Origin: a virus
DNA: 21,751 nucleotides
IMG/VR virus record: IMGVR_UViG_3300021373_001435
Coordinates: 1 to 21,751 of that record
Strand: one strand, 5' to 3'
Both the position numbers and the translations under genes were made by a program. The notes beneath the pieces are model-generated. The model saw only the letters and a list, made by a program, of their open reading frames with translations, had not been told where the DNA came from and ran no database searches. Shown here in pieces: positions 845-18,969 of the stretch; position 1 is the stretch's first letter, and every line of letters begins with the position of its first letter.

Positions 845-3145
845 ATGCCTATTATATATTCATACCCATTGATAAATACGGTCAAAGACAGTGACCAGTT
901 TATAATAAGCGTAGCTCCTACAGACAGTGAAGACACGTTTGAAACGCGCAATGTTACGTATGAAACGTTAAGAGACAGTATACTAGCAGGTTCTACCTCA
1001 GGTACAGTAGAAAGTATTACATTTGTAGCACCTTTAACAGGTGGAACCATAACAGATACAGGTAGTGTCAGTCTACCACAAGCTAATAATTCTACTGACG
1101 GTTATCTATCTTCAACTGACTGGACAGCATTTAACGCTAAACAGAACATTAGTGAAAAAGGCCAAGCAAATGGCTACGCACCACTTAATGCGTTCACTAA
1201 AATAGACGTTCAGTACCTGCCCGACAGCTTTGTAGGCGCGGTAGTTTATCAAGGTACATGGAACGCAGGAACAAACACACCCACACTTCCAGCGCCAGCG
1301 CCAGGTAATAAAGGATATTACTATGTAGTAAGTGATCCTGGTACTTATTTAGGTATAACTTATGGCATTGGTGACTGGGTTATTTCAAATGGAACTGATT
1401 GGGAGAAAGTTGACAACTCACAAAGTGTTACGTCTGTAAACGGGCAACAAGGTGTAGTTGTTCTAACTACCACAGACATTGCTGAAGGTACGAATCTTTA
1501 TTATACAGATGCTAGAGTAGCATTAGCGCCATCAGTTGTAGCTAACACAGCTAAAGTATCTTTCCCAGGTTTTGGAACTACAGCAGGTACGGCACTAGAG
1601 GGTGATACAGTAATACCAGCTGCTTACACAGATGCAGATGTTGATGCGCATTTAAATTTATCAACAGCGGTATTTGATCAAGTTTTAGGTTGGAACGGTA
1701 ACGATTACACTTGGGTAAATCAATCTACAGGGTCTGGAAGTGTAACAGAAATTACAACAAGCGGTGGTTTAACTGGTGGCCCAATTACAAGTACAGGTGA
1801 TATATCAATAGACCCAACTGGCACTATTGGTGCTGGTGTTTATGGTAGTACATTTAGTAGTGTTAAGATAAACGAAATAGAAGTTGATGCTTACGGTAGA
1901 ATAGTATCTATATCAACTGGATCAACTGGATCTGGTAGTGGTACAATGTCTAGCTTTAACGTTACCAACGGGATAACGACAGGTATCATGTCTGACAACG
2001 GAACGTTTCAAATATCTAGTGGTAGCGGGATCAGCGTTTCACTTGCTGGGTCCGGCGGTTCAGCGATATTTACAGTATCAAATACTGACAGAGGTTCTGC
2101 GCAAAATATATATAAGAATTTTAGAGCAGACACAGGAGGTACAGCTACGGCTAATGTTAATAATGATACTCTTGTTATAGCTGGTGGTACGAATATAGAG
2201 ACAAATAGAAATGGTGATGTTATAACTATAAATTCTACAGGTGGTAACACTGACACTACTTATAGCTATGCATCGGCTCAAAGCACTAACGATGTAGATC
2301 TTACTCTCACGGGTTCTGACGCTTCAACAAACACAGTTAAGCTTGTAGCTGGTTCAAACGTAACTTTAACAGATAACGGTTCTAACCAAGTTACTATTGC
2401 TGCTGCTACAGGTACAGGTGTTGGTGGTAGTGGAACAGCAAGCTATATACCTATATGGTCAACTGGATCTACGATAAGTGATAGTATTATATATGAATAC
2501 GATTTTGGAGGTGGTCAACGTCAAATTGGAATTAACACAACATCTCCATTTGCTATGCTAGATGTTAATGGTGATCTTCAAGTTAATAGCGACACGTTTA
2601 CACCAGCCCGTATTTATCGTGAGCTACCAACTACTTCTGGCACAGAACAAGCTCTTCACATTAAAACATACACAAACTCAGGAGCTATACAAGACGGCTT
2701 TGGTGGAGGTATAACTTTTTCTTTAGCTAATTCTGGTATTGATACTAATATTGCGGCTAGAATATATGCTGTAAGAAATGGTGGTGACACTACAGGTAGT
2801 TTACAATTTTACGGTGGATTAAATGGTAGTGTGAATATTGCTAACATGATTAGCACTGGTCAATTACAATTACCAGGTTATGGTGGAAATTCATTTCCCG
2901 GCACTGCTACAAAAAGCTTAGCTGTAAATGCCGGCGGCGATGTTATCGAAATTGACGTTGCAACATCTAATGTACAATCAGATTGGAATGCTACAAGTGG
3001 TGCCGCTGAAATATTAAATAAACCAACAGACCTTGTTTCTGGTACAACACAAAGTCAAACAGCTGTTACACAAATAAGAACACTAACATCTGCTGAATAT
3101 CAGGCTATAACCCCCGCAGCTGATGTACTATATATAATCGTATAA
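845..3145 (+). CDS. Large modular tail-fibre protein
   Basis: This 766-residue protein is rich in Thr, Ser, Gly and Asn with almost no Lys-rich or membrane segments, as expected for an extended trimeric beta-structured fibre. The N-terminus MPIIYSYPLINTVKDSDQF resembles that of the protein at 4344, suggesting a shared virion-attachment module. Around residues 137-191 is a module of the type GTWNAGTN...GYYYVVSD...GIGDWVISNGTDW, and residues 219-224 show YYTDAR, a motif common in marine phage fibres. Residues near 570 (FAMLDVNGDLQVN) resemble fibre shafts that precede chaperone or tip domains. The C-terminus (LTSAEYQAITPAADVLYII) is a short closing motif also seen in phage structural proteins. 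No intramolecular chaperone domain is evident. It probably contributes to receptor contact. Confidence 0.8.
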   Translation: MPIIYSYPLINTVKDSDQFIISVAPTDSEDTFETRNVTYETLRDSILAGSTSGTVESITFVAPLTGGTITDTGSVSLPQANNSTDGYLSSTDWTAFNAKQNISEKGQANGYAPLNAFTKIDVQYLPDSFVGAVVYQGTWNAGTNTPTLPAPAPGNKGYYYVVSDPGTYLGITYGIGDWVISNGTDWEKVDNSQSVTSVNGQQGVVVLTTTDIAEGTNLYYTDARVALAPSVVANTAKVSFPGFGTTAGTALEGDTVIPAAYTDADVDAHLNLSTAVFDQVLGWNGNDYTWVNQSTGSGSVTEITTSGGLTGGPITSTGDISIDPTGTIGAGVYGSTFSSVKINEIEVDAYGRIVSISTGSTGSGSGTMSSFNVTNGITTGIMSDNGTFQISSGSGISVSLAGSGGSAIFTVSNTDRGSAQNIYKNFRADTGGTATANVNNDTLVIAGGTNIETNRNGDVITINSTGGNTDTTYSYASAQSTNDVDLTLTGSDASTNTVKLVAGSNVTLTDNGSNQVTIAAATGTGVGGSGTASYIPIWSTGSTISDSIIYEYDFGGGQRQIGINTTSPFAMLDVNGDLQVNSDTFTPARIYRELPTTSGTEQALHIKTYTNSGAIQDGFGGGITFSLANSGIDTNIAARIYAVRNGGDTTGSLQFYGGLNGSVNIANMISTGQLQLPGYGGNSFPGTATKSLAVNAGGDVIEIDVATSNVQSDWNATSGAAEILNKPTDLVSGTTQSQTAVTQIRTLTSAEYQAITPAADVLYIIV

Positions 3146-3146
3146 T

Positions 3147-4331
3147 ATGGCTGATTTAAAATTCGGAAATGTAACACCTGCTGTAGGTAACATTAAGCTA
3201 GGTAGTAATAATGTTTCTGAAATATATCAGGGCACAACTAAATTATGGCCGCAATCTTTTCCTCCATCACCAGGTGAAGTTACTGTGTGTGATTTGGTAT
3301 GGACAAGAGAAAATTCAATAATTACGACCACCAACACGGGAGGTGCAAATATTCCAATAGTAACCAACCAAACTGATTGGGTGAATGCTATTAGTAATCA
3401 ACAACCAGCCGCTTGCTATTGGGATTTTGATTCTAACAACGCTTTTAGAGGTCTTTTGTATAATGTTTATACGACAGAAGTAATTCAACCACCTGCAGGT
3501 TTTAGACTACCTACAGAACAAGATTTTACAGATTTACGTCTCTGTGTTAGTGCAGGTTCTCCTCAAGGAAATATGGATGTAACATCTTTAGCTAATAATT
3601 ATTATGGTTTTTGGCCTTCTACTTTAGCTTCAAACCCAAGATTTGGAACAGTAGATTTTAATGCTATAGGTTCTGGTTATACTTACAAATATGGGAGTGG
3701 TAGTCAACAGTTTACTGGGCAAGGTGTAAGAGATATATATTGGGTGCAACAACCTAGTTCTTTTCCAGTTTTAAATTACTTTAGAGCCTTTATGACTTAC
3801 GATAACACTGATTACGTTAACAATGTTCGTTACTTACAAGGTTTTAACGGTAATGCCTCTAATGGGTTTAATCATGGATTTTCTATGAGATTTGTTAAAG
3901 ACGTACCTACTTCGACAGTTGAGCTTTATGATTGCCAATCACCCTTTCAATGCTCGGAAGTTGCTGTAGTAGATCATAGTAAAACATATACTAGTTCAGG
4001 TGGCGGGCTTGTAAGTAACCCTAACATGAGCATTATTGTTCCTACTCAACAATCTTGGTCTCCAACTTGGGAAATATGTGTTAATCTGCCAAACAATATT
4101 ACTGTAACACAACTACAATTACGACTTTACAGTGATAGCTTGAGACAAAATTTAGTGCACACTTACCAAAAAAATATAGATCCTAGTGATCAATCACCAC
4201 CTTGTAATACGCCTGAAATATTTACTTTTGCTGATACAACTCTTGCGTCCGGCACGTATTATTGTAGAACTCTTATTTATAATAATAGAAGTGGAACTGG
4301 TCCTTTTGTTATCACAGCATTAATTAGTTAA
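3147..4331 (+). CDS. Tail adhesin with a Fibrobacter-paralogous (FISUMP-like) domain
   Basis: Three parts are visible in this 394-residue protein. Residues 1-36 carry a phage virion motif ending IYQGTTKLWP. Residues 46-252 resemble the FISUMP domain of Bacteroidota and Fibrobacteres: VWTRENSIIT, a CYWDFD segment, RGLLYNVY, GFRLPTEQDF, GFWPST and the end motif GFSMRFVKD, in the usual order. Residues 255-394 look like a beta-sandwich with several Cys residues. FISUMP domains are typical of surface and secreted proteins of that phylum, so a phage copy probably binds the host surface. The Asn/Tyr/Asp-rich stretch just before GFSMRF occupies the position where C-type-lectin-like phage adhesins often vary. 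It starts 2 bases after the previous stop. Confidence 0.72.
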   Translation: MADLKFGNVTPAVGNIKLGSNNVSEIYQGTTKLWPQSFPPSPGEVTVCDLVWTRENSIITTTNTGGANIPIVTNQTDWVNAISNQQPAACYWDFDSNNAFRGLLYNVYTTEVIQPPAGFRLPTEQDFTDLRLCVSAGSPQGNMDVTSLANNYYGFWPSTLASNPRFGTVDFNAIGSGYTYKYGSGSQQFTGQGVRDIYWVQQPSSFPVLNYFRAFMTYDNTDYVNNVRYLQGFNGNASNGFNHGFSMRFVKDVPTSTVELYDCQSPFQCSEVAVVDHSKTYTSSGGGLVSNPNMSIIVPTQQSWSPTWEICVNLPNNITVTQLQLRLYSDSLRQNLVHTYQKNIDPSDQSPPCNTPEIFTFADTTLASGTYYCRTLIYNNRSGTGPFVITALIS

Positions 4332-4343
4332 TAAAAATAACTT

Positions 4344-5039
4344 ATGCCCATAATATCCTCGTATAAAAAAAATAATACGCCAGACCCATCTGATATACTT
4401 ATAGGAACAGATGTATCTAATGGGCAGACAAAAAACTTTAGTTTAGGTGGAGCATCAGTTGTTATAATAAACGACTTTTTAAAACACTCTGCCTGGAAGT
4501 TTATTATACAAGACCCTGATCCAGACCCTAGACCAGAAGGTACTATATCGTTTGAAAACTATGGTGGTCAAGCTACGCCTTGGCAAGATATAACTAGTTT
4601 ATATATAAACGTGCAAATGCCGGTAACGGTGCCTGTAGTTTTACCTTATTTACAAAGGTTTATAGGTTACGATGTAATTATACAAGACGTAAGATCATTA
4701 GGTAGATTTGGCGTTTATACGTTAACAGCTTTAACTCAAGTTCAAGGTAATGTTTATAACATGGAGCTAGAGTTTGTAACTGGTAACAACAACATACAAG
4801 CACTTCAATATTATTCAATTCAAATAGACGAAATAGAGGGCTTTGATTCTCACTTCGAATTTACACAAGGTGTACCAGCTACAACTTGGGACATAACACA
4901 TAATTTAGATAAGTTTCCTTCAATATCAGTTGTTGACACAGCAGATACAACTGTTATAGGTAGCTATGAGTACATAACAAAAAATAGAGTAATATTGAAC
5001 TTTTCAGATGCTTTCGCTGGAAAAGCATTTTTAAACTAA
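4344..5039 (+). CDS. Tail-fibre protein with a phage C-terminal beta domain
   Basis: The N-terminal 30 residues (MPIISSYKKNNTPDPSDI) resemble the start of the fibre at 845, so both may dock on the same virion site. The last 60 residues hold a domain widely found at the ends of phage fibres: FEFTQGVPATTWDITHNL, then FPSISVVDTADT, then RVILNFSDAFAGKAFLN. The middle is beta-rich, with many Tyr and Val. At 231 residues it is short for a fibre and may be a distal or accessory fibre subunit. It starts 12 bases after the previous gene with an A-rich leader and no Shine-Dalgarno sequence. A receptor-binding or adaptor role is inferred. Confidence 0.72.
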   Translation: MPIISSYKKNNTPDPSDILIGTDVSNGQTKNFSLGGASVVIINDFLKHSAWKFIIQDPDPDPRPEGTISFENYGGQATPWQDITSLYINVQMPVTVPVVLPYLQRFIGYDVIIQDVRSLGRFGVYTLTALTQVQGNVYNMELEFVTGNNNIQALQYYSIQIDEIEGFDSHFEFTQGVPATTWDITHNLDKFPSISVVDTADTTVIGSYEYITKNRVILNFSDAFAGKAFLN

Positions 5040-5045
5040 AAAACA

Positions 5046-6848
5046 ATGGCAATACAATTTGTAAATAATGTAGATTTTAATGCGAATCAAGCGCAATCTA
5101 TAAGAATAGAAAACGTAGCAACCGATCCTTCTACAGAATTAGTTATCGGTAGAATTATATTTAACACAGCGGCAGACACACTTAAACAATATGTAGCTGA
5201 CGCTGGAGGTGGTAGCCCTGGCTGGGTTGAAGTGGGTAGCAGTAGTGGTGTAGAAACTTTTACCAACACTAGTGGTACGTTTGTATCTTTTGGAACAGAT
5301 AACTCTTCGGCTGTAGGGGATGTTAGTGTAGGAACTGTAGATCTTTCTGCAACAGGCACACCTAGTGCAACTACGTTTTTAAGAGGTGATAATACTTGGG
5401 CAGAGGCAGGCACAGTAACGTCTGTTGGTCTTTCAATGCCAGGGGCTTTTACAGTAACAAATTCTCCAGTAACTGGATCTGGAACTTTAACTGTAACAGG
5501 ATCTGGTACCACGTCTCAGTATGTAGACGGAACAGGCGCGCTGCAAACATTTCCAACTATACCAACTGTACCTTCTAACATTGTAGAAACAGTAACTACT
5601 ACAGATGGTACATACATAGATCTTACACCAAACTCTCCCACGGATGGTGCGGTAACAGTTACAGCAGACTTAAGCGCAGTAGACGGCACAGCTGGCGCAA
5701 ATGAAAGATACTTAACTAAAAACAATACTTGGGCAACAGTTGCTTCGATACCTGGTACCTATGATTTTAACGTAACTGCGGACTCTGGTACAGATCAAAC
5801 TATTGATAGTGGTAATACTTTAGACATAGCAGGTGGAACTAACATAAGTACTGTAGTAGGTGCTACTGATACCGTAACAGTAAACTTAGATGATAGTATA
5901 TCTTTAGCAGGTAGTTTAACAGTTGGAACAACAGGTGATTTTACAGGTCAAGTTACAGTACCAACCGCAACAGCTTCAACAAGCGCGCCTAACTTAGCTC
6001 AGGTTCAGTCTTTAATTGCTGGAGTTGGTGTATTCCAAGGTGGTTACAATGCTATAACAAACACACCGGCTTTAACAGGTAGTAGTAACATAGCGTTAGA
6101 TCAAGGTGATTACTTTGCCGTAACCGATTCAAACAACACTTCATTTTTAGGTACTATTTTAGAAGTTGGTGATTTAATATTTGCTAACAATGATATAACA
6201 GCAAACTCAACCCCAACCGCTTCTGACTATACTATTGTACAATCAGGACAAAGTATAGCAGGCGAAGGTGCTACTGATGGAGCTACAATAAAAGGTATTG
6301 CTGGCTTCAACTCTGCACACTTTAGTGTTACAACAAACGGATTTGTTTCAGCTGACGTAGCAACTGCAAGTTCAATTGGTATTGGTAATGTTAATGCTGC
6401 TACAGCAAATGATTTGCTGGGTGTTAACGTAACTTATTCATCTGGCACAGCTTCTGTTGGTTTGAATGTAGATGGTCTTACGGAAGACACATCACCGGCT
6501 ACAGATGATACTATAGTTATATACGATACTTCAACTTCTACAAATAAAAAAGCAACACTAGCTAACATAGCCTCTGCTATCGATATATCAAAAGGAGTTA
6601 GAATATCATTAAGTAGTACTGTGTCTGGCGTAGGAAGAACTGAATCTGGAGGATTAACTACATTTGACGTAAACACTAACACTGTTCTCGGTCAGTCAAC
6701 TGCTTTAGACGTTAAAGCAGAAATTATAACATCTGGAGGTCAAACAGTTTATGCAGATATTACAAGATCTGGTAACACACTTAACGTGATATTTACAGGT
6801 AGTGTAGCAAATGGAACTTACGAAGCTTTGTTAGTTGACGTAGGATAA
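5046..6848 (+). CDS. Modular tail-fibre protein
   Basis: This 600-residue protein opens with MAIQFVNNVDFNANQ and a RIENVATDPS...GRIIFNTAADTLKQY module, characteristic of marine phage fibres that recognise short polymer repeats. Thr/Ser/Gly-rich beta repeats follow, with short TFLRGDNTWAE and RYLTKNNTWATV units repeated in the shaft. From about residue 325 it has GGYNAITNTPALTG, parallel to the GTWNAGTNTPTL module of the fibre at 845. The end (GNTLNVIFTGSVANGTYEALLVDVG) is a common fibre terminus. The start ATGGCAATACA matches that of the next gene, so the two are probably paralogues in their attachment region. Likely part of the same fibre or baseplate complex. Confidence 0.78.
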   Translation: MAIQFVNNVDFNANQAQSIRIENVATDPSTELVIGRIIFNTAADTLKQYVADAGGGSPGWVEVGSSSGVETFTNTSGTFVSFGTDNSSAVGDVSVGTVDLSATGTPSATTFLRGDNTWAEAGTVTSVGLSMPGAFTVTNSPVTGSGTLTVTGSGTTSQYVDGTGALQTFPTIPTVPSNIVETVTTTDGTYIDLTPNSPTDGAVTVTADLSAVDGTAGANERYLTKNNTWATVASIPGTYDFNVTADSGTDQTIDSGNTLDIAGGTNISTVVGATDTVTVNLDDSISLAGSLTVGTTGDFTGQVTVPTATASTSAPNLAQVQSLIAGVGVFQGGYNAITNTPALTGSSNIALDQGDYFAVTDSNNTSFLGTILEVGDLIFANNDITANSTPTASDYTIVQSGQSIAGEGATDGATIKGIAGFNSAHFSVTTNGFVSADVATASSIGIGNVNAATANDLLGVNVTYSSGTASVGLNVDGLTEDTSPATDDTIVIYDTSTSTNKKATLANIASAIDISKGVRISLSSTVSGVGRTESGGLTTFDVNTNTVLGQSTALDVKAEIITSGGQTVYADITRSGNTLNVIFTGSVANGTYEALLVDVG

Positions 6849-6863
6849 AACAAATAAAATTTA

Positions 6864-8234
6864 ATGGCAATACAGTTTAAAAATCTAGTAGACGTATTTG
6901 AACAGAGAACAGGAGCTACAGCAACAGATGCTTACACGCTAACTGTATCTACTGAACAAACATCAGGAGCTACACCAAACCCTGGCACAGGAGGTTTAAA
7001 AGTTCAATACTATAGCGTCAGCAGCGGAACCACTCATGGTTTTGGTTTAGTTGCTGGCTCTAGTTCTAGTGATTTTTTAACTAGTGGTCCAATGCACTTT
7101 TACACTAACTCTGATTTAGACACAAAAAACGCTACCGGATTAGCCATGATTTTAGATACCAGCCAAAACCTAGGTATAGGTGTTACATCTATAACAGCCG
7201 GTAATAGATTAGAAGTGGCAGGTGGAACTATAGGTATTGACGACTATTTAGTGCACAATGGCGATACCAACACTAAATTTGGTTTTGTAGCTAATGATAA
7301 TTTTGCTATAACAACTGCAGGTTCAGAAAGAATAAGGGTAACAAGTGGAGGAAACCTTGGTGTTGGAACAAATAACCCAGTTAACAAACTAGATGTTGCA
7401 GGTGACATTGGCGTTGACGAATATATAGTTCACAATGGAGATACTAACACTAAATTTGGGTTTTCTTCAGCAGGTGTTGTAACGTTTGGTGCAGATCCTG
7501 CAAACCCTACATGGTATTTAGATTTAGTAAATAAAAAAACAGGATTTAGAACTACAACTCCTGGTTCTGCATTCGATGTTAATGGTACTTTTAGAGCAAG
7601 AAATGAATTAAATGTAGGTGCTACATCAGAGCAAAACCTTTTTGTTGAAGGAGGATCTGGACCTAGATATGTTAAAATGGGTGCTTATACACCATCTAAC
7701 AAAGACACTTGGCTAACAGGTGCATCAAATGCAAATTTAGTTAGAGGTACTGCAGGCTTTGGAACAGGTGGTAAAATATTAATGGCAACTTATAGGTATA
7801 CTACTAAGATAGAGCCCGGTGGTTGGCCTACAAGTGGTGGATCTAATAACGGGGTCAATATAACACCCACTCCGTCAAGTGGCCAAGTTATGATAGTTAA
7901 AGGTATTTTTGTACACAAGGCAGGTAGTACTATAGGTTCTGGCTGGTCTACTAGTACTTATCCTGTTATTTTTACACAACAAACAAACGCTGGTAGTTAT
8001 GCATATGTAGGAGCTGTATCTAGAACAGTAATTATTAATGGAAGCGGTGCTTGGTTTTATAATGCTCTTGGCTATGGTGAAAATGGCTTTCAACAAGGTG
8101 GCTCAGGTAGGCCTGTACAATTATTTCTCAACGCGGCTCCAATAACAAATGAACCAACTTGGTACATTACAGTAGAATATAGCATAATAAATTTAAATGT
8201 TTATAGACAAAACGTAGATCAAACTTTAACTTAA
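6864..8234 (+). CDS. Tail-fibre protein with an internal repeat
   Basis: This 456-residue protein begins MAIQFKNLVDVFEQRTGA, like the preceding fibre. The central part carries S74-type fibre-shaft motifs (LGIGVTSITAGNRLEVAGG, LGVGTNNPVNKLDVAGD) and a near-exact repeat of about 27 residues containing YLVHNGDTNTKFGF and YIVHNGDTNTKFGF. No peptidase S74 chaperone domain follows. Instead the last 190 residues form a Gly/Tyr/Trp-rich beta domain, perhaps the receptor-binding tip. The A-rich leader AAAACAAATAAAATTTA precedes the ATG. It is the third large fibre in the block, which suggests a branched or multi-component adsorption apparatus. Confidence 0.76.
   Translation: MAIQFKNLVDVFEQRTGATATDAYTLTVSTEQTSGATPNPGTGGLKVQYYSVSSGTTHGFGLVAGSSSSDFLTSGPMHFYTNSDLDTKNATGLAMILDTSQNLGIGVTSITAGNRLEVAGGTIGIDDYLVHNGDTNTKFGFVANDNFAITTAGSERIRVTSGGNLGVGTNNPVNKLDVAGDIGVDEYIVHNGDTNTKFGFSSAGVVTFGADPANPTWYLDLVNKKTGFRTTTPGSAFDVNGTFRARNELNVGATSEQNLFVEGGSGPRYVKMGAYTPSNKDTWLTGASNANLVRGTAGFGTGGKILMATYRYTTKIEPGGWPTSGGSNNGVNITPTPSSGQVMIVKGIFVHKAGSTIGSGWSTSTYPVIFTQQTNAGSYAYVGAVSRTVIINGSGAWFYNALGYGENGFQQGGSGRPVQLFLNAAPITNEPTWYITVEYSIINLNVYRQNVDQTLT
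7203..7463 (+). repeat. Two-copy internal coding repeat in the fibre gene
   Basis: Copy 1 (7203-7286) encodes a unit from NRLEVAGG to TNTKFGF, and copy 2 (7383-7463) encodes NKLDVAGD to TNTKFGF. Both share VHNGDTNTKFGF exactly. The copies start 180 bases apart and differ at many third codon positions, so this is an older duplication kept by selection, not a recent slippage event. Confidence 0.75.
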
Positions 8235-8643: not shown

Positions 8644-8928
8644 ATGACACTATATTACAAGACTCATACGTGGAGTAGTCAACCGCAAATATCCGAAGAC
8701 CAAATAAACTTTTGGAAGCATATCGCTGATAAAACAAATTGGCGAATAGTACAATTACCAAATGGATATTTTCAAACTGAATACAAAGATCAAGATGGAG
8801 CTTGGCAAGATGTTACTCGTAGAGAAACTATGGATGGCGCTGAAGCTGCTATAGATGGTAGCATCGAGCACTACACTAAAAAGCTTGAATTTGTAAAAGG
8901 TCCTAAGGTAGTTAAAACTTTTGAATAA
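8644..8928 (+). CDS. Conserved small phage protein of unknown function
   Basis: This 94-residue protein has aromatic residues in the first half (YYKTHTWSS, FWKHIADKTNWRIVQLP). The second half is conserved-looking: NGYFQTEYKDQDGAWQDVTR, then RETMDGAEAAIDGSIEHY and KKLEFVKGPKVVKTFE. I believe I have seen close relatives in marine phage genomes without a function. It is soluble, of mixed charge, and probably a compact alpha/beta fold. It stands alone between two structured untranslated stretches, upstream of groEL, after the leader AAAACCAAAACCA. A link to chaperonin function or to tails is possible but unproven. Confidence 0.65.
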   Translation: MTLYYKTHTWSSQPQISEDQINFWKHIADKTNWRIVQLPNGYFQTEYKDQDGAWQDVTRRETMDGAEAAIDGSIEHYTKKLEFVKGPKVVKTFE

Positions 8929-8935
8929 AAATAAA

Positions 8936-9030
8936 TTGGGTAGGGCATGCTGCGGTGTACTATCAACAAGTAGGAACCGTGTGGACGATTTACTGCCCCA
9001 CCCATTCAATACGCTACTCGCGAAGAGTAA
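8936..9030 (+). ncRNA. Candidate structured 5' leader RNA of the chaperonin genes
   Basis: The outer stem pairs TGGGT-a-GGGCA (8937-8947) with TGCCC-c-ACCCA (8994-9004), ten pairs with one mismatch. Inside, GCGGT (8952-8956) pairs with ACCGT (8976-8980), including one G-U, and TACT (8958-8961) pairs with AGTA (8969-8972) around a 7-base loop. A third stem, TACTC/GAGTA (9015-9029), follows. ATTTAC (8988-8993) could pair with GTAAAT (9027-9032) and compete with it. The GC-rich outer stem is striking in AT-rich DNA. It matches no riboswitch or ribozyme I can recall. It may control groEL or be a processing site. Confidence 0.55.
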
Positions 9031-9052
9031 ATTAAATTAAATTAAATTAAAT
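9028..9052 (+). repeat. Tandem AAATT repeat leader before groEL
   Basis: The 25 bases before the groEL ATG are almost entirely a five-base AAATT repeat of about five units. It has no Shine-Dalgarno sequence and cannot fold, giving an open ribosome landing site. Such A/T-only leaders fit initiation in Bacteroidota. The copy number could change by slippage. Confidence 0.7.
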
Positions 9053-10609
9053 ATGTCAGATAAAATTGTTAAAAACCTTAACTTTGGGGAAGACGCAAAG
9101 AACAAGGTGTTTAAAGGTATAGAAAAACTCACAAAAGCTGTTAGCTCCACGCTCGGAGCTAGCGGCCAATGTGTTATACTAGAAGATGATCAGGGTAAAC
9201 CCGTCATTACAAAAGATGGTGTAACTGTTGCAAATAGTATTACATTAAGAGACCCGGTAGAAAACATGGGTGCTACGCTTCTAAAAGAAGCTGCTAGAAA
9301 AACCGTTCAAGAAGCTGGCGATGGAACAACAACGGCTACGGTACTAGCGCACTCAATTTTAACAGAGGCCTATAAAAATTTAGATAAAGATAATACCCGT
9401 AACATTAAAGAAGGCATAAACAAAGCCGTTAATAATGTTATTAAATACTTAGAGAAAAAAGCAATATCTGTTGAAGGTACTATGCTTGATGATGTTGCTA
9501 CTATTAGTTGTAACAACGATAAAAATCTAGGTAAAATAATTGGGGAAGCGTTTAAAGTTGCTGGTGAAAACGGTGTTGTTGTGATGGAGCCAACAACCGA
9601 AGATACTACAGAGCTTGAGTTAGTTGACGGTGTTCAATATGAAAAAGGTTTAACTAACTCACATTTTGTAACAAGCAAAGACAAACGAGTGGCTGAGCTT
9701 GATAATCCATTAGTATTACTACTAGAATCGCCAGTAGAGTCTGTGCGTAAGATACAGTCGGTGTTAGAGTATGTAATTAAAAATAAAAAACCTTTACTTA
9801 TAGTAGGTGACTTAGAAACAGAAGTTCTAGCTACTCTTGCAATGAATAAAGTAAAGGGTAATATAAAAGTAAACGTTATTAACGCGCCAACTTACGGTAT
9901 AAATAAGAAAGACACGCTTTCTGATTTAGCTTTACTTACTGGCGCAACTGTAGTCAATGAAGATCTTGGAGATGATTTAGATGTTATTAATCCAGACTTT
10001 TTAGGTACTTGTGATAAAAGTATAACTAATGACACAGAAACTATATTGCAGGTAGATACGTCTACTGAAGATATAAAAAAATTAATTAGTTCAGTAAAAA
10101 AATTAATAGCTAAAGCTAAATCGCCTGGAGAAGTTATACGTCTTGAAAAACGTTTAGCTAGATTATCAGGTAAAGTTGCAGTTGTTAAAGTTGGTGCTAA
10201 TTCAGAAATCGAATTAAAAGAAAAATCAGATAGAGTTGAAGACGCTATCTGTGCTACTAAAGCCGCGGTAAAAGAAGGTATAGTATCAGGAGGTGGTATA
10301 GCTTTGCTTGATGCATCTAAAAAAACCAAAGCAAAAACAGCTGGTGAAAAGATATTGCTACAAGCTATTAAAGCACCGTTTAAAACTATACTAAATAATG
10401 CTGGACTGGAAGAGGTTGGTACGCCCGAAGAAGGTATGGGTGTTAATGTGATTACAGGTGATATTGTAAATATGGTTGATAAAGGTATTATCGACCCATT
10501 GCTTGTAACTAAAAGCGCACTCAAACACGCGGCTTCAGTGGCTACCACTATATTATCTACAGATTGTGTAATCAATAACTTAAGAGTTGAATATGAAAGC
10601 AATAGGTAG
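9053..10609 (+). CDS. groEL: Phage-encoded chaperonin GroEL (Cpn60)
   Basis: An ATP-driven protein-folding chamber subunit of 518 residues, probably assembling into rings with the downstream GroES to fold virion proteins in the cytoplasm. The whole family pattern is present: TLGASGQCVILED, ITKDGVTVANSI, the nucleotide site AGDGTTTATVLA (D90 matches E. coli D87), RVEDAICATKAAVKEG (D397 matches D398) and SGGG at 412-415. By hand alignment several hydrophobic apical substrate or GroES contacts are changed (Y199 to L200, Y203 to H204, L234 to Q235), while the Phe next to the second is kept (F205). The flexible Gly-Gly-Met tail is absent; the protein ends soon after the equatorial strand. The gene follows a structured leader and overlaps groES by 17 bases in groEL-groES order. 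Confidence 0.95.
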   Translation: MSDKIVKNLNFGEDAKNKVFKGIEKLTKAVSSTLGASGQCVILEDDQGKPVITKDGVTVANSITLRDPVENMGATLLKEAARKTVQEAGDGTTTATVLAHSILTEAYKNLDKDNTRNIKEGINKAVNNVIKYLEKKAISVEGTMLDDVATISCNNDKNLGKIIGEAFKVAGENGVVVMEPTTEDTTELELVDGVQYEKGLTNSHFVTSKDKRVAELDNPLVLLLESPVESVRKIQSVLEYVIKNKKPLLIVGDLETEVLATLAMNKVKGNIKVNVINAPTYGINKKDTLSDLALLTGATVVNEDLGDDLDVINPDFLGTCDKSITNDTETILQVDTSTEDIKKLISSVKKLIAKAKSPGEVIRLEKRLARLSGKVAVVKVGANSEIELKEKSDRVEDAICATKAAVKEGIVSGGGIALLDASKKTKAKTAGEKILLQAIKAPFKTILNNAGLEEVGTPEEGMGVNVITGDIVNMVDKGIIDPLLVTKSALKHAASVATTILSTDCVINNLRVEYESNR

Positions 10610-10856
10610 AAATATAATTATAGAAACTAAAAAAGAAGATACCATTAAAAAAACAGATGGTGGTCTTATGTTAACTGGTAAACAACGAGTTGACGTTCGT
10701 TATAAAGAAGCTACTGTGCTTCATTGTGGCGATGACGTTAGAGGTGTTAAAAAAGGTAACAAAATATTTTATGATAAGCATTCAGGTAACAGACTTGAAG
10801 TTGATAAAAATGTTTTTTACGTTATAAAAGATACTGATGTGGTCGTTGTGTTATGA
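10593..10856 (+). CDS. groES: Phage-encoded co-chaperonin GroES (Cpn10)
   Basis: This 87-residue protein should form the heptameric lid of the GroEL chamber. The mobile loop that docks on GroEL is clear: TDGGLMLTGK, with L25-M26-L27 in place of the usual Ile-Val-Leu. The barrel strands are recognisable (GRNIIIETKK, EATVLHCGDD, GNKIFYDKHSG, FYVIKDTDVVVVL). The region between HCGDD and KKGNKI is much shorter than the roof hairpin of E. coli GroES, which recalls T4 Gp31. I chose the ATG at 10593 rather than a TTG two codons upstream, as ATGs dominate here and the family starts at this point. It overlaps groEL by 17 bases and the next gene by ATGA, suggesting translational coupling. Confidence 0.92.
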   Translation: MKAIGRNIIIETKKEDTIKKTDGGLMLTGKQRVDVRYKEATVLHCGDDVRGVKKGNKIFYDKHSGNRLEVDKNVFYVIKDTDVVVVL

Positions 10857-11296
10857 GATTAGAAGCTAGTGACATTAGGGATTTAAATCTTCTTAAGCAC
10901 TATCGTATAATACGTAAGTGGGCTTGTAAAAACAACGATCTTAACGATGCAGAGCTAGAGTTGTTAATATACTTGGACTGCATGGATATGTTTACACGTA
11001 AAGATTTTGAAGACGGTACATATTCTTTTAGTTGGGATAATAGGCGTTGGAACAAGCTTTTACAAAAAGACTGGATTACACTTTGGAGAAAGTATAATAG
11101 AACTACACAAAAGTATAATATATACAAAGTATCATTTAAAGGTAAACAGTTAATATCGCGCATGTATAGAATTATGCTAGGTGAAGAAGATATACCTACT
11201 AGCACCAGACGTAATAGCATAATGAAAGGCAAGACTTACAGCGATAAAGTTTTGTCATTTGCTATTAATAAAGTCAATAAAGATAAAAACAGATAA
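10853..11296 (+). CDS. Conserved phage protein, possible winged-helix type
   Basis: This 147-residue basic protein has helices in the first half (LLKHYRIIRKWACKNN, DAELELLIYLDCM), then an FTRKDFEDG turn, WDNRRWNKLLQKDWITLWRK and a strand pair NIYKVSFKGKQLISRMYRIM. This order of helices, turn and beta wing resembles MarR-like winged-helix proteins, and I recall similar proteins next to structural genes in marine phages. The C-terminal tail (TRRNSIMKGKTYSDK) is basic. It could be a late-gene regulator, a DNA-binding virion protein or something else. It overlaps groES by ATGA, so it is translated together with the chaperonin genes. Confidence 0.6.
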   Translation: MRLEASDIRDLNLLKHYRIIRKWACKNNDLNDAELELLIYLDCMDMFTRKDFEDGTYSFSWDNRRWNKLLQKDWITLWRKYNRTTQKYNIYKVSFKGKQLISRMYRIMLGEEDIPTSTRRNSIMKGKTYSDKVLSFAINKVNKDKNR

Positions 11297-14587: not shown

Positions 14588-15004
14588 ATGGCTTATAATA
14601 ATCCAGTACAAAAAAAAGAGTCCGCTTGTAAGCAGTTAAAAAGCGAGACAGGTAAACTATCAGGGTTAATGATGGAAGGTTCTTTAGCACATATGGAAGC
14701 AGATTCAGCTTTGCATAATAACGATCCTTATAGCAGAGCAGCTGCAAATGATAAAGTTTTCGCTGATGCTAAAAAATCCAAATACAGCAGAAGCAATCCA
14801 AAACACGCGGGATCAAACTTTTTACCACCAGCAAATCCTAAAGCAAAAAAAGATTTAGTAAAAGGTAAAACAGCTGATGAAGATTTAGCTTCATATTTTT
14901 ACGACTCAGATCAAGATGGTGATAGCGTATTTAGAGATTACAACCAAGATGGCACAATGGCTGGAAGATTTGTGCAAAATTTAGTTAAAAAACTTAAAGG
15001 GTGA
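14588..15004 (+). CDS. Protein with calcium-loop-like motifs, function unknown
   Basis: This 138-residue protein is polar and Lys/Ala/Asn-rich, beginning MAYNNPVQKKESACKQLKSE. Near the C-terminus it has DSDQDGDSVFRD (residues 106-117), which has Asp at positions 1, 3, 5 and 12 and Gly at 6 of an EF-hand or dockerin-type loop. A second partial copy, DYNQDG, starts at residue 117. The usual hydrophobic residue at position 8 is shifted by one, so calcium binding is plausible, not certain. A helix with KKLKG closes the protein. It overlaps the holin gene through GTGA. A minor virion role is likely from context only. Confidence 0.58.
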   Translation: MAYNNPVQKKESACKQLKSETGKLSGLMMEGSLAHMEADSALHNNDPYSRAAANDKVFADAKKSKYSRSNPKHAGSNFLPPANPKAKKDLVKGKTADEDLASYFYDSDQDGDSVFRDYNQDGTMAGRFVQNLVKKLKG

Positions 15005-15399
15005 AAAAACTTTTAAGTCTTTTAACTGGTGGGTTAATTAAAGACGTAGGTAATGTAATAGACAAGCTTACAACTACAGATGAAGAAAGGCTAGCCGCTA
15101 AACAAAAGATACAAGAGTTACTAGAGAAAGCAGATCAAGATGCGCAGACTCAAATTACTGAGCGCTGGAAACTTGATATGCAATCAGATTCATTTTTATC
15201 AAAGAATATCCGCCCGTTAGTATTAATATATCTTACTGTTATATTTACGGCATTAGCATTTTTTGATGGTAATATTGGTGGGTTTCAAGTAGACGAAGCG
15301 TATATACCTATATTTCAATCATTATTGATTACGGTGTATGGTGCATATTTTGTAGGTCGTACTTGGGAAAAAGCAAAGAAATCGAGTGATAATAAATAA
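15001..15399 (+). CDS. Phage holin of the 3-TM GTA-type superfamily
   Basis: Holins make the lesion in the inner membrane at the end of infection. In this 132-residue protein an amphipathic N-terminal helix (KKLLSLLTGGLIKDVG) and a charged helix (residues 28-60) precede the family motif SFLSKNIRPLVLIYLTV. Two membrane helices follow (about 71-89 and 101-119, the latter ending AYFVGRTWEK). The motif SFLSKNIRP with a later YF-GR-EK end is characteristic of the GTA/phage holin group (Holin_3TMs type). The start is GTG at 15001 within the previous gene's stop region. No endolysin is visible nearby. Confidence 0.82.
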   Translation: MKKLLSLLTGGLIKDVGNVIDKLTTTDEERLAAKQKIQELLEKADQDAQTQITERWKLDMQSDSFLSKNIRPLVLIYLTVIFTALAFFDGNIGGFQVDEAYIPIFQSLLITVYGAYFVGRTWEKAKKSSDNK

Positions 15400-15422
15400 G
15401 TAAATAATTTAAATTAAATCAA

Positions 15423-15692
15423 ATGGCAAATAAAGTTACAGCTGAAGAGCTTAAAACAATTAAAGATCAACAAGCAGAGTTAGGAACAGTTATTAACCAA
15501 ATAGGTCAACTAGAAGCTAGCAAGCACGCTATGCTTCATAAGATTGCTGGTATTAACGAATCTATTGAAGAGACTAAAAAAGAACTTGAAACAAAATATG
15601 GTTCTGTAAATATTAATCTTGAAGATGGTAGTTACACTGAAATCGAAAAAGAAGATGACGGTGAGTTAAGTGTTGTTAAATCAGAAGAGTAA
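15423..15692 (+). CDS. Small coiled-coil phage protein
   Basis: This 89-residue acidic protein has a long helix (residues 5-58) with heptad-like hydrophobic spacing (LKTIKDQQAELGTVINQIGQ, IAGINESIEETKKELETKYG). A short beta tail follows (VNINLEDGSYTEIEKE). Proteins of this layout, with KYG followed by INLEDG, are common in marine phages near structural genes. The function is unknown; a fibre or tail assembly coiled coil is possible. Its leader is A/T-only (AATTTAAATTAAATCAA), like that of groEL. It ends in TAATG with the next gene. Confidence 0.66.
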   Translation: MANKVTAEELKTIKDQQAELGTVINQIGQLEASKHAMLHKIAGINESIEETKKELETKYGSVNINLEDGSYTEIEKEDDGELSVVKSEE

Positions 15693-15919
15693 TGAGTACT
15701 GTTATAAGAAAAATCAGTATTGGTTCTGATTATAAGAATGATGCTATGCACTACGCGTTAGGCCAACAGGTCTATGGTGGTCATGAGATATCACATATTC
15801 TGTTTGAAGACGATGATGCTTCTTATAACATATTCATAAAGAAAAACAACGAGGTATTGCCATGGAAGAAGTTTAATTCTAACATGGCTATATCTGTTGA
15901 ATATGATTTAGAATATTAA
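15692..15919 (+). CDS. Conserved small phage protein of unknown function
   Basis: This 75-residue protein has a compact alpha/beta look: MSTVIRKISIGSDYKNDAMH, then YALGQQVYGGHEISHI, then NIFIKKNNEVLPWKKFNSN and SVEYDLEY. The pattern IGSDYKNDAMHY...LPWKKFN...EYDL recurs in small proteins of marine and flavobacterial phages, without an assigned function to my knowledge. TAATG overlaps at both ends tie it to the coiled-coil gene and the tandem GroES-like gene, so it is made together with them. Its place next to packaging genes suggests head assembly, as inference. Confidence 0.68.
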   Translation: MSTVIRKISIGSDYKNDAMHYALGQQVYGGHEISHILFEDDDASYNIFIKKNNEVLPWKKFNSNMAISVEYDLEY

Positions 15920-16524
15920 TGAGAAGTGTTTTTGATTTTATAGTTGTGCCAGACGGAAAAAGGTATAACAATGAAATTGATATAGAAGGCGATAAGCTTA
16001 TAGTTAATTCTAGTATAGAAAACTTTAAGCTTATAAATAGAAAAGCCGTTGTACTTACTACACCAACCGCTTTTGATACGCCAATACAAGAAGGTGATGA
16101 AGTTATTATACACCATAATGTATTTAGAAGATATTACAACCTAAAGGGTGAAGCAGTCGACAGTAGTAAAACGTTTGATGACAATAAGTATTTTTGCCAG
16201 TATGATCAAATATATTTATACAAACGCATGGTTAAGTGGATAGCTGTAGGTGAAAGATGTTTTATTATGCCAATTAAAAATAAAGATGAATGGTCTTTAG
16301 AAACAGAACAAAAAAATAAAGGTATAGTAAAAATAGGAAATAAAACTTTAGAGTCGCTAGGTATATACGAAGGTGATTTAGTTGGTTTTAAATCTAATAG
16401 AGAGTTTGAGTTTATTGTAGATAAGCAAAGACTTTATTGTATGCAATCAAATGATATTTTAGTTAAGTATGAGTTCAAAGGAAACGAGGAAGAGTATAAT
16501 CCAAGCTGGGCGAAAAGCAGTTGA
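15919..16524 (+). CDS. Tandem GroES-fold-like protein upstream of the terminase
   Basis: This 201-residue protein appears to have two barrels of Cpn10 type. In the second (about 108-187), ERCFIMPIKNKDE, KNKGIVKIG, EGDLVGFKSN and VDKQRLYCMQSNDILVKYE follow the GroES order, the last two matching GDIVIF and NEEVLIMSESDILAIV of E. coli. The first (about 25-102) has KAVVLTTPT, IQEGDEVIIHHNVFRR and KYFCQYDQIYLYK in the same order. Neither half has the Gly-Gly-Ile-Val-Leu-type mobile loop, so classical GroEL capping is doubtful. The C-terminus EEYNPSWAKSS overlaps the next gene by 56 bases. It may be a folding factor for capsid proteins or an unrelated use of the fold. Confidence 0.66.
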   Translation: MRSVFDFIVVPDGKRYNNEIDIEGDKLIVNSSIENFKLINRKAVVLTTPTAFDTPIQEGDEVIIHHNVFRRYYNLKGEAVDSSKTFDDNKYFCQYDQIYLYKRMVKWIAVGERCFIMPIKNKDEWSLETEQKNKGIVKIGNKTLESLGIYEGDLVGFKSNREFEFIVDKQRLYCMQSNDILVKYEFKGNEEEYNPSWAKSS

Positions 16525-16744
16525 TGAGTTAATTAAAGTTGCTGAAGAAAAAATCATTACTAATACAGAAGATGATGTTTCTGCAGATAGACTTAAAAAT
16601 GCAGCGGCAACTAAAAAGCTTGCTATATTTGACGCGTTTGAAATACTAGCTAGAATAGAAGAAGAAAAAAATATGCTTGAAGAAAAACCTCAGAATACTA
16701 AAGAAAAAAGTTTTAAAGGTTTTGCTGAAGGTAGATCAAGATAA
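16469..16744 (+). CDS. Putative terminase small subunit-like protein
   Basis: This 91-residue helical protein starts MSSKETRKSIIQAGRKAVDE and contains SADRLKNAAATKKLAIFDAF, EILARIEEE and the end FKGFAEGRSR. It directly precedes the large terminase with a TAATG overlap, the usual place for a small terminase subunit that recognises phage DNA. The family match is by position and helical content, not a known domain, so the assignment is tentative. The first 56 bases overlap the previous gene in another frame. No in-frame ATG or GTG that I can see follows soon after, and the IIQAGRKAVDEL segment looks like the true N-terminal helix. Confidence 0.58.
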   Translation: MSSKETRKSIIQAGRKAVDELIKVAEEKIITNTEDDVSADRLKNAAATKKLAIFDAFEILARIEEEKNMLEEKPQNTKEKSFKGFAEGRSR

Positions 16745-18969
16745 TGTACGAGCAGTCTTTAGTAAAAATAATACAAGACCACATTAAACCTAGCATTTTA
16801 AAAAAAAATAATAGGTATAAAAAATGGGAGTATGGATATGACGTTGAAAACGACGTTATAGTTATAAGTAAAGATGGTACGATAGGTGATGTAGTTGAAA
16901 TACAAAATCTTAAAATAGCTTTACCAGCTATTCCTGAAAACGTTTACGTTGCGTCTGAAGAAGAAAAAGACCAGCGTTGGGTTAAAGCAGAATACCCAAA
17001 ACAATTAGCTAAAATCAAAAGCGTATTTGACTGGGAAAGATATCCAGTTAACTTTAAGGAAGAATGGTATGATTACATTGATGAAGAGTTCAGAAGAAGA
17101 GAAGAAGGTTTCTGGTTTAAAAACAAAGGTATATCTACTTATATTACTGGCTCTCATTACATGTTCTTGCAGTGGTCTAAAATTGACGTTGGGGCAGCAG
17201 ATTACAGAGAATCAAATAGACTTTTCTTTATATTCTGGGAAGCGTGTAAAGCAGATCAACGATGTTATGGTATATGCTACCTCAAAAATAGACGGTCTGG
17301 TTTTTCCTTTATGGCGTCATCAGAACTTGTACACCAAGCGACTATATCTTCCGACTCACGTTTTGGAATATTATCAAAGTCAGGAGCTGACGCTAAAAAA
17401 ATGTTTACCGACAAAGTTGTACCGATATCAATCAACTACCCGTTCTTTTTCAAACCCATACAAGACGGTATGGATCGACCGAAAACAGAACTCGCCTATA
17501 GAGTACCAGCGTCAAAGCTTACAAGAAGAAAACTTGATCAGGGAGAAGCGCCAGAAGAACTTGAAGGGCTTGATACAACAATCGACTGGAAAAATACAGG
17601 TGACAACTCATATGACGGTGAAAAGCTTAAACTCCTTGCCCACGATGAATCAGGTAAGTGGGAGCGTCCAGATAACATTTTAAATAACTGGCGGGTTACA
17701 AAAACCACATTAAGATTAGGTAGTAAAGTTGTTGGTAAGTGTATGATGGGATCTACAAGTAACGCTTTAGACAAAGGTGGTGATAACTTTAAAAAATTAT
17801 ACTATGCGTCAGACGTCACACAAAGAAACCGCAATGGACAGACTAGCTCGGGATTATATAGTTTGTTCATACCTATGGAATGGAACTACGAAGGGTTCAT
17901 TGATTCTTATGGAATACCTGTATTCGACTCACCAAGAGACGCGGTTAAAGACCCACAGGGCGATTTAATTACTACAGGTGTCATAGAACACTGGGAAAAT
18001 GAAGTTGATGGTCTTAGAAATGATCAGGACAGTTTAAATGAATATTACCGTCAGTTCCCACGAACAGAGAAACACGCGTTTAGAGACGAAGCAAAATTAT
18101 CTTTATTTAATCTAACTAAAATTTATGAGCAAATAGATCATAATGAAGATATGAAAAACAAAGCTATGGTTACTCAAGGTAACTTTCAGTGGGCTGGTGG
18201 TATAAAAGATACTAGCGTTAGCTTTGTACCAGACAACAATGGTAGATTTTTAGTTTCATGGATTCCACCTATAAATCTACAAAACCGTGTAATAATAAAA
18301 AATGGAGTGAAGTTTCCAGGTAATGATCACGTAGGTGCTTTTGGTTGTGATAGTTACGATATATCTGGAACTGTAGACAAGCGTGGCTCAAAAGGATCGC
18401 TACACGGTTTAACTAAATTTAGCATGGAGCAAGCGCCCTTTAATATGTTCTTTTTAGAATATATATCAAGACCTCCAACAGCTGAAATATTCTTTGAAGA
18501 TGTTTTAATGGCATTGCATTTTTATGGCATGCCTATACTTGCAGAGAATAACAAACCTCGACTATTGTATTATTTAAAACGTAGAGGTTATAGAAAATTT
18601 TCAATGAACAGACCAGATAAAATATATAATAAACTGTCTGTCGCGGAAAGAGAAATAGGTGGTATACCTAATTCAAGTGAAGATATTAAGCAAGCTCACG
18701 CTGCTGCTATAGAATCATATATAGAAGATTACGTGGGTTTGAGTGAAAATGGATATGGTGACATGTATTTTCAAAGAACATTAGAAGACTGGGCAAAGTT
18801 TAATATAAACAATAGAACAAAGTTTGATGCAACGATTAGTTCTGGTCTAGCTATAATGGCTTGTAATAAAAATAAATACACACCAGTAAACATACAACAA
18901 CGAGATCCAGTTAACATATCGTTTAAAAAATATGATAACACAGGTTACATTTCAAAAATAATACAATAA
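16744..18969 (+). CDS. terL: Terminase large subunit (packaging ATPase-nuclease)
   Basis: This 741-residue packaging motor drives DNA into the prohead and cuts it. The ATPase part shows a deviant Walker A-like segment, YLKNRRSGFSFMASSE (residues 179-194), lacking the classical GKT/S as in some crAss-like and other large-phage terminases. Walker B is LLAHDE (297-302, D301-E302), with a coupling-motif candidate MGSTSN near 335-340. The nuclease part has the first metal Asp in GAFGCDSYDISGT (D536), and a later Asp in RTKFDATISSG (D695). The C-terminus is Lys/Asn-rich. The start overlaps the small-subunit stop as TAATG, and the portal begins immediately after the stop. Confidence 0.9.
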   Translation: MYEQSLVKIIQDHIKPSILKKNNRYKKWEYGYDVENDVIVISKDGTIGDVVEIQNLKIALPAIPENVYVASEEEKDQRWVKAEYPKQLAKIKSVFDWERYPVNFKEEWYDYIDEEFRRREEGFWFKNKGISTYITGSHYMFLQWSKIDVGAADYRESNRLFFIFWEACKADQRCYGICYLKNRRSGFSFMASSELVHQATISSDSRFGILSKSGADAKKMFTDKVVPISINYPFFFKPIQDGMDRPKTELAYRVPASKLTRRKLDQGEAPEELEGLDTTIDWKNTGDNSYDGEKLKLLAHDESGKWERPDNILNNWRVTKTTLRLGSKVVGKCMMGSTSNALDKGGDNFKKLYYASDVTQRNRNGQTSSGLYSLFIPMEWNYEGFIDSYGIPVFDSPRDAVKDPQGDLITTGVIEHWENEVDGLRNDQDSLNEYYRQFPRTEKHAFRDEAKLSLFNLTKIYEQIDHNEDMKNKAMVTQGNFQWAGGIKDTSVSFVPDNNGRFLVSWIPPINLQNRVIIKNGVKFPGNDHVGAFGCDSYDISGTVDKRGSKGSLHGLTKFSMEQAPFNMFFLEYISRPPTAEIFFEDVLMALHFYGMPILAENNKPRLLYYLKRRGYRKFSMNRPDKIYNKLSVAEREIGGIPNSSEDIKQAHAAAIESYIEDYVGLSENGYGDMYFQRTLEDWAKFNINNRTKFDATISSGLAIMACNKNKYTPVNIQQRDPVNISFKKYDNTGYISKIIQ

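Follow-up and report, generated by a model that had tools for sequence, protein, structure and literature searches.

The DNA analysed here probably encodes a phage-dedicated group I chaperonin operon, in which groEL and groES form a coupled pair, the GroEL would most likely work as a single ring and a probable second lid is encoded beside the terminase. This best explanation starts from the genes, their order and conservation, the GroEL phylogeny, the residue losses and the predicted folds, and from these we infer translational coupling, the single ring, the class of substrate and the role of the second lid. The window, by which the whole stretch of 21,751 bases is meant, comes from an IMG/VR virus record and carries the following features.

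The chaperonin pair and its surroundings

845..8234, + strand: tail-fibre/minor-tail genes (phrog_13892, phrog_18345)
9027..9052, + strand: AT-rich (TTAAA)n leader immediately 5' of the groEL start codon, containing three overlapping copies of TTAAATTAAATTAAAT
9053..10609, + strand: groEL, group I chaperonin, 518 aa (PF00118, E=2.7e-59; phrog_5725, E=3e-136)
10593..10856, + strand: groES, co-chaperonin, 87 aa (PF00166, E=7.1e-10; phrog_3188)
10853..11296, + strand: winged-helix protein, 147 aa, MarR-like fold (phrog_17028), ATGA-coupled to groES
15001..15399, + strand: holin (phrog_3427, E=8.7e-29)
15919..16524, + strand: second GroES-like gene, 201 aa, predicted tandem cpn10 (Cpn20-like; phrog_13932 'co-chaperonin GroES', E=1.1e-25)
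16744..18969, + strand: terminase large subunit (phrog_6681, E=3.6e-164)
18970..21390, + strand: portal protein (phrog_6547, E=1.8e-143)

The assignment to a phage is secure because tail-fibre, holin, terminase and portal genes share the + strand around the pair, which lies inside a late structural gene block as the first-pass annotation had described. Judged by terminase, the closest isolates are Podoviridae sp. ctfjg026 (62%) and the Flavobacterium phages elemo (45%), followed by Maribacter phage Panino and Cellulophaga phages, and the virus group carrying the pair infects marine Bacteroidota-type bacteria. A protein of the tail region (3147-4331) contains a Fib_succ_major domain (PF09603), which is usual in Bacteroidota/Fibrobacter surface proteins.

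groEL extends from an ATG at 9053 to a TAG at 10607-10609, and groES from an ATG at 10593, within the last six groEL codons, to a TGA at 10854-10856, so that the coordinates confirm both the gene order and the 17-base overlap (10593-10609) reported earlier. A longer groES reading frame is possible from TTG 10587; ATG 10593 is the start conserved among relatives (MKAIG...). The onward coupling of groES to the next gene was likewise seen, the ATG of that gene (10853) overlapping the groES stop as ATGA, and this junction is retained in 79/81 loci. The tandem cpn10 gene stands beside the terminase on the groEL strand in all 71 loci that could be judged, and groEL, groES and the tandem cpn10 gene are all under purifying selection (dN/dS ~0.05-0.28 vs relatives). 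The Pfam matches, this selection, the order shared by the viral relatives and the retained ATGA speak against a chance arrangement. High-level synthesis together with virion proteins, which the first-pass annotation had also proposed, is suggested by gene position, a claim limited by the elemo pair, which stands opposite to the late strand, and by that of Cellulophaga phage phi38:1, which lies among replication genes.

Comparison of the locus sequences indicates how the 17-bp overlap is fixed. The first groES codons hold TAG or TAA in the groEL frame, the groEL stop being made up from the groES Gly codon GGT plus AGx or AAx; the overlap is thus pinned because the groES Gly-(Arg/Asn/Lys) codons contain the groEL stop. 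Where the Gly codon is GGA instead of GGT, the stop comes three bases later and the overlap is therefore 20.

Upstream of groEL, the leader motif TTAAATTAAATTAAAT has 5 matches in the window against 0.24 expected, and a similar leader precedes groEL in the relatives aligned. The (TTAAA)n leader is a likely translation-initiation or late-expression signal, as judged from sequence, and such leaders are possibly an initiation signal of Bacteroidota type; a second one occurs at 15404-15424, before the gene at 15423. Promoter and terminator scans were uninformative in this AT-rich DNA. A hairpin of ~75 nt (8937-9010) lies between the open reading frame at 8644-8928 and groEL, and occurs in the window, in L001 and L003 and in one further contig, L302; its stems differ among the window, L001 and L003 in ways that look compensatory. 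It found no Rfam match at gathering, the minus strand being weakly like c4-2 RNA (18.2 bits vs 41 required). A conserved upstream RNA forming part of the operon was considered and rejected: the hairpin is missing from L002 (96% GroEL identity) and others, and is therefore an insert.

Downstream, the winged-helix protein was modelled by AF2 with pLDDT 90.8, and its best Foldseek matches were to the MarR family (E ~3e-3, prob 1.00); by sequence it gave a weak match to TcaR (E=0.13). In the elemo and ctfjg026 genomes a homologue adjoins the pair, though encoded on the other strand, which makes the gene a neighbour and not an invariable partner. The modelled MarR-like protein may regulate the operon.

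Gene order and descent

The order of the pair was followed in 80 viral contigs with a related GroEL (66-97% identity), retrieved by patterns taken from the GroEL of the window itself and hence a close-kin sample; an elemo query and contigs of metagenome-assembled genomes (MAGs) widen the range. groEL precedes groES on one strand in 80/80; the two genes share 17 bp in 73 of these loci, 20 bp in three, 4 bp in three and a single base in one. By comparison, groES precedes groEL in 57/57 Bacteroidota chromosomal pairs sampled and in Salmonella, in agreement with the earlier statement on bacterial operons, and this bacterial layout was found neither in the window nor in any of the 80 viral relatives. 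The contig of one relative, L045 (G112), bears a broken second groEL copy and an intact groES at 1819-3529 besides an intact pair elsewhere.

Among other phages, groEL also comes first in 13 elemo-type loci, ctfjg026 and Panino, whereas groES comes first in phi38:1, immuto, Bacteroides phage DAC16 and one faecal phage; in seven further phages with groEL (Vibrio, crAss-like and others) no groES was found nearby. Elemo (Elemovirus, e.g., NC_055854) thus resembles the window in its order, with an overlap of 1 bp, in its related terminase and in the tandem cpn10 beside it, but its GroEL is just 38% identical and its pair faces away from the late genes. ctfjg026 (MW202828) has overlapping groEL and groES in the same order on the late strand, and a tandem protein, yet its GroEL is 35% identical and its winged-helix neighbour faces the other way. 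phi38:1 (Pervagoviridae) also encodes a GroEL, a GroES and, ahead of the terminase, a tandem cpn10; unlike in the window, its groES comes first, a gene intervenes between groES and groEL, and both lie in the replication region.

A maximum-likelihood tree of 38 GroELs placed the window clade (support 100/96) together with elemo, ctfjg026 and Panino in a phage-only, groEL-first clade (96/92), which phi38:1 and immuto join next (100/98 each); the Bacteroidota chromosomal GroELs and nearby phages (DAC16, LAK) fall outside it. ctfjg026, Panino and phi38:1 are on long branches, and their exact placement is less sure. GroES, when treed alone, agrees broadly and is too short for support. As the check on an old phage system, the first-pass annotation had named a distinct phage clade sharing the gene order, and such a clade was found, the groEL-first label needing one change on the tree.

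That single change would accord with a reading in which the reversed order has no function of its own, a neutral rearrangement having occurred once and become fixed as the overlap was embedded in codons that are hard to change, namely the groES Gly-(Arg/Asn/Lys) codons that set the groEL stop. We regard this as quite possible, if slightly the less probable side of the question. Against it, overlaps of 20, 4 and 1 bp exist, from which it follows that the exact length is not needed, yet tight coupling is always kept. The reversed order itself is chiefly a clade marker. Marine et al. 2017 (ISME J), whose subject is said to be divergent viral GroELs of virioplankton, reportedly linked the order of the large and small subunit genes to GroEL phylogeny in marine viruses, and the gene order is for that reason probably already known.

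Recent capture of a groESL operon from a Bacteroidota host, with local shuffling of the order, was rejected and must be considered highly improbable. In favour of capture, the tree puts the phage clade next to Bacteroidota (98/96), which makes an ancient donor near Bacteroidota plausible, but the GroEL of the window is just 38-42% identical to host GroELs. Forcing the window clade to group with Bacteroidota hosts cost 87.5 log-likelihood units (AU p=3.7e-6), and with Flavobacteriaceae-type rows 90.4 (AU p=2.9e-9). Moreover, the 80 relatives have a common order and derived residue changes. Changes in the ring interface, the apical site, the roof hairpin and the tail point to long adaptation, and together the GroEL tree, the AU rejection and these derived changes uphold the earlier proposal of an old, phage-adapted system.

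Twenty matches were also obtained in bacterial or archaeal genome contigs, all of them MAG contigs scattered across unrelated groups (Euryarchaeota, Aliivibrio, Chloroflexi, Flavobacteriaceae and others). Of the eight MAG genomes tested, seven also contain a further chaperonin gene of ordinary cellular type. A chromosomal origin for these matches was rejected on both grounds, and they are most likely mis-binned phage DNA.

Ring interface, lid and probable second lid

The GroEL of the window is a member of the Cpn60 family by its PF00118 match, and its best match in the PDB is an ancestral FCB-group chaperonin (E=2.6e-115). The ATP residues are kept (T30, G32, K51, D52, D87, G88-T91, D398, G414, G415 and D495), with D52, D87, D398 and GDGTT conserved in the window and in 24/24 clade members aligned. 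The segments that make ring-ring contacts in GroEL are lost from the window clade in the alignment, which is at ~40% identity: segment 426-437 is cut from 12 to 5 aa in 94/98 clade members, and segment 461-467 from 7 to 2-4 aa in 98/98, both being intact in 57/57 hosts. Elemo GroEL differs from the clade in retaining a longer 462-466 segment. E434, E461, S463, V464, A109 and R452 are contacts between the GroEL rings (PMC2741606); the cut segments carry E434 (426-437) and E461, S463 and V464 (461-467), and A109 is also replaced. Mutations at R452/E461/S463/V464 render GroEL single-ring, and mtHsp60, which is mostly single-ring, lacks two matching salt bridges (PMC5575113). The GGM tail, common though not essential, occurs in 0/98 clade members versus 48/57 hosts. 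At the apical GroES/substrate site (Y199, Y203, F204, L234, L237, L259, V263, V264), F204 and L237 are kept, and Y203H/N, L234Q, V263A and V264M are found in nearly all 98 members.

With both ring-ring contact segments cut, a single ring of seven subunits is most likely, or else a new ring interface, and the sequence comparison predicts that chaperonins of the window type are single-ring, or re-wired at the interface, and have their own lid. A double ring built on a re-wired interface, in which the deletions merely shift the contacts, appears rather doubtful. It has a precedent in phage EL, whose chaperonin assembles into double rings through 1:1 contacts, the rings splitting upon ATP (PMC7185714), but here the deletions hit the two contact patches known from GroEL, and no compensating insertion near them was seen in the alignment. 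The chaperonins of phages EL, OBP and AR9, likewise phage-encoded and with single-ring states (PMC9598537; PMC7185714), work without a co-chaperonin, whereas the lineage of the window always keeps groES adjacent, which argues against EL-type action as well as against a re-wired double ring.

The GroES belongs to the Cpn10 family by its PF00166 match, and its GGLML lines up with the mobile-loop GIVL, a motif kept in the clade as GGLML/GGLLL. The roof beta-hairpin, which is absent in some GroES/Cpn10 members and has been lost by T4 gp31, is missing in the alignment; GroES of the clade is 86-88 aa, and that of the window ~9 residues shorter than the E. coli type and 4-5 shorter than that of Bacteroidota. 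This shortening goes in the same direction as that of gp31, with which the window GroES shares phage origin as a lid, although T4 uses the host GroEL and the window phage encodes its own. The GroEL-gp31 chamber is expanded for the capsid protein gp23 (PMC5780408).

The second GroES-like gene is predicted to encode two cpn10 domains in one chain. An AlphaFold2 model of the 201-aa protein (pLDDT 86.7, pTM 0.81; alignment of 42 sequences) gave as best Foldseek match in the PDB chain 7ekq_R, named 'Cpn20 co-chaperonin subunit' (E=7.6e-5, TM 0.54, 204 columns), and subsequently GroES and gp31 chains. Model and fold search support two domains over the full length; at the sequence level, the C-half was recognised against bacterial GroES (hhalign E=1.9e-7), profile comparison detected no cpn10 in the N-half, and the tandem profile, when run against PDB sequences, returned no cpn10, the fold search alone having matched. 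Plastid Cpn20 likewise has two cpn10 domains per chain, but the tandem protein is remote from it in sequence, its N-half is unrecognisable and its gene stands beside the terminase.

The tandem gene was present in 20/23 records searched, and undetected among these in Gundel_1 and two crAss-like phages. It is just upstream of the terminase, separated from it by at most one small gene, in the window, elemo, Panino, phi38:1, phi18:3 and phi19:3. In the crAss-like record cr111_1 (L198), a gene at 5816-6226 annotated 'putative 10kDa chaperonin' lies three genes upstream of the terminase; it was not detected by Pfam Cpn10 or by the tandem profile, and may be a distant counterpart. phi18:3 and phi19:3 have the tandem gene and a single GroES without GroEL, and the tandem gene is accordingly independent of a phage GroEL.

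This fixed synteny with terminase and portal, even in phages without GroEL, could instead mean that the tandem protein is a part of the packaging machinery or virion that happens to have a GroES fold. Such a role seems rather improbable, for the top fold match is the two-domain co-chaperonin of plastids, ahead of GroES and gp31, and in the phi18:3 record MS/MS detection is noted for tail and portal proteins but not for the tandem protein. phi18:3 and phi19:3, moreover, keep a single GroES in spite of having no GroEL, which makes action of the tandem protein on the host GroEL possible. Among lids, plastid Cpn10 and Cpn20 form mixed or alternative rings (PMC5780408).

Proposed mode of action and its significance

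Drawing these observations together, an old lineage of Bacteroidota-type phages would hold a dedicated chaperonin operon from which GroEL and then GroES are made by coupled translation. GroEL would bind unfolded phage proteins and ATP and be capped by its own GroES; because GroEL and GroES have co-adapted, they probably act independently of the host machinery. Phage proteins would then be folded in a chamber that has no second ring as its timer. A single-ring mutant of E. coli GroEL stalls on this timing problem (PMC5575113), which weaker lid contact could solve, and the altered apical residues would fit such a solution. A roofless lid might give large proteins of the phage extra space, as gp31 does in T4, and the two-domain GroES-like protein would probably act as an alternative or mixed lid in the manner of plastid Cpn10/Cpn20. 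A bolder form of this scheme, which we put forward tentatively and think somewhat less probable than its negation, is a three-part machine comprising a contact-deleted single-ring GroEL, a roofless coupled GroES and a Cpn20-like lid, the last being the most widespread and usable on host GroEL where the phage has none.

The pair might alternatively serve the host cell during infection, through stress or cold tolerance, and not the folding of virion proteins. Viruses of the Southern Ocean are reported to be rich in GroEL/GroES, which has been read as cold adaptation and host support (PMC8407431). In the window, however, the genes around the pair on its strand are those for tail, holin, terminase and portal proteins, and the changes at the apical site and in the lid hint at special clients, so that we consider host support unlikely and prefer a machine dedicated to phage proteins.

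Phage GroELs as such are already established, having been described from Bacteroidetes phages (Nishimura 2017, PMC5332604) and from marine and soil viromes (PMC8390657). The loss of the ring interface across the clade is a new structural detail, and no description of it or of a tandem Cpn20-like lid was found in the open literature searched. To our knowledge, neither of these nor the pinned overlap formed part of the account by Marine et al. 2017. Whether a GroES-dependent chaperonin needs two rings is a long-standing question, which this detail makes testable: with ring-contact segments cut, and ATPase residues and a paired GroES kept under purifying selection, the clade would offer a natural and direct test case. 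For the tandem cpn10 gene, Flavobacterium phage elemo and Cellulophaga phages phi38:1 and phi18:3 are isolates suited to tests. We know of Cpn20-type lids from plastids only, and the tandem cpn10 protein, if it is a lid, would put this type of lid in phages.
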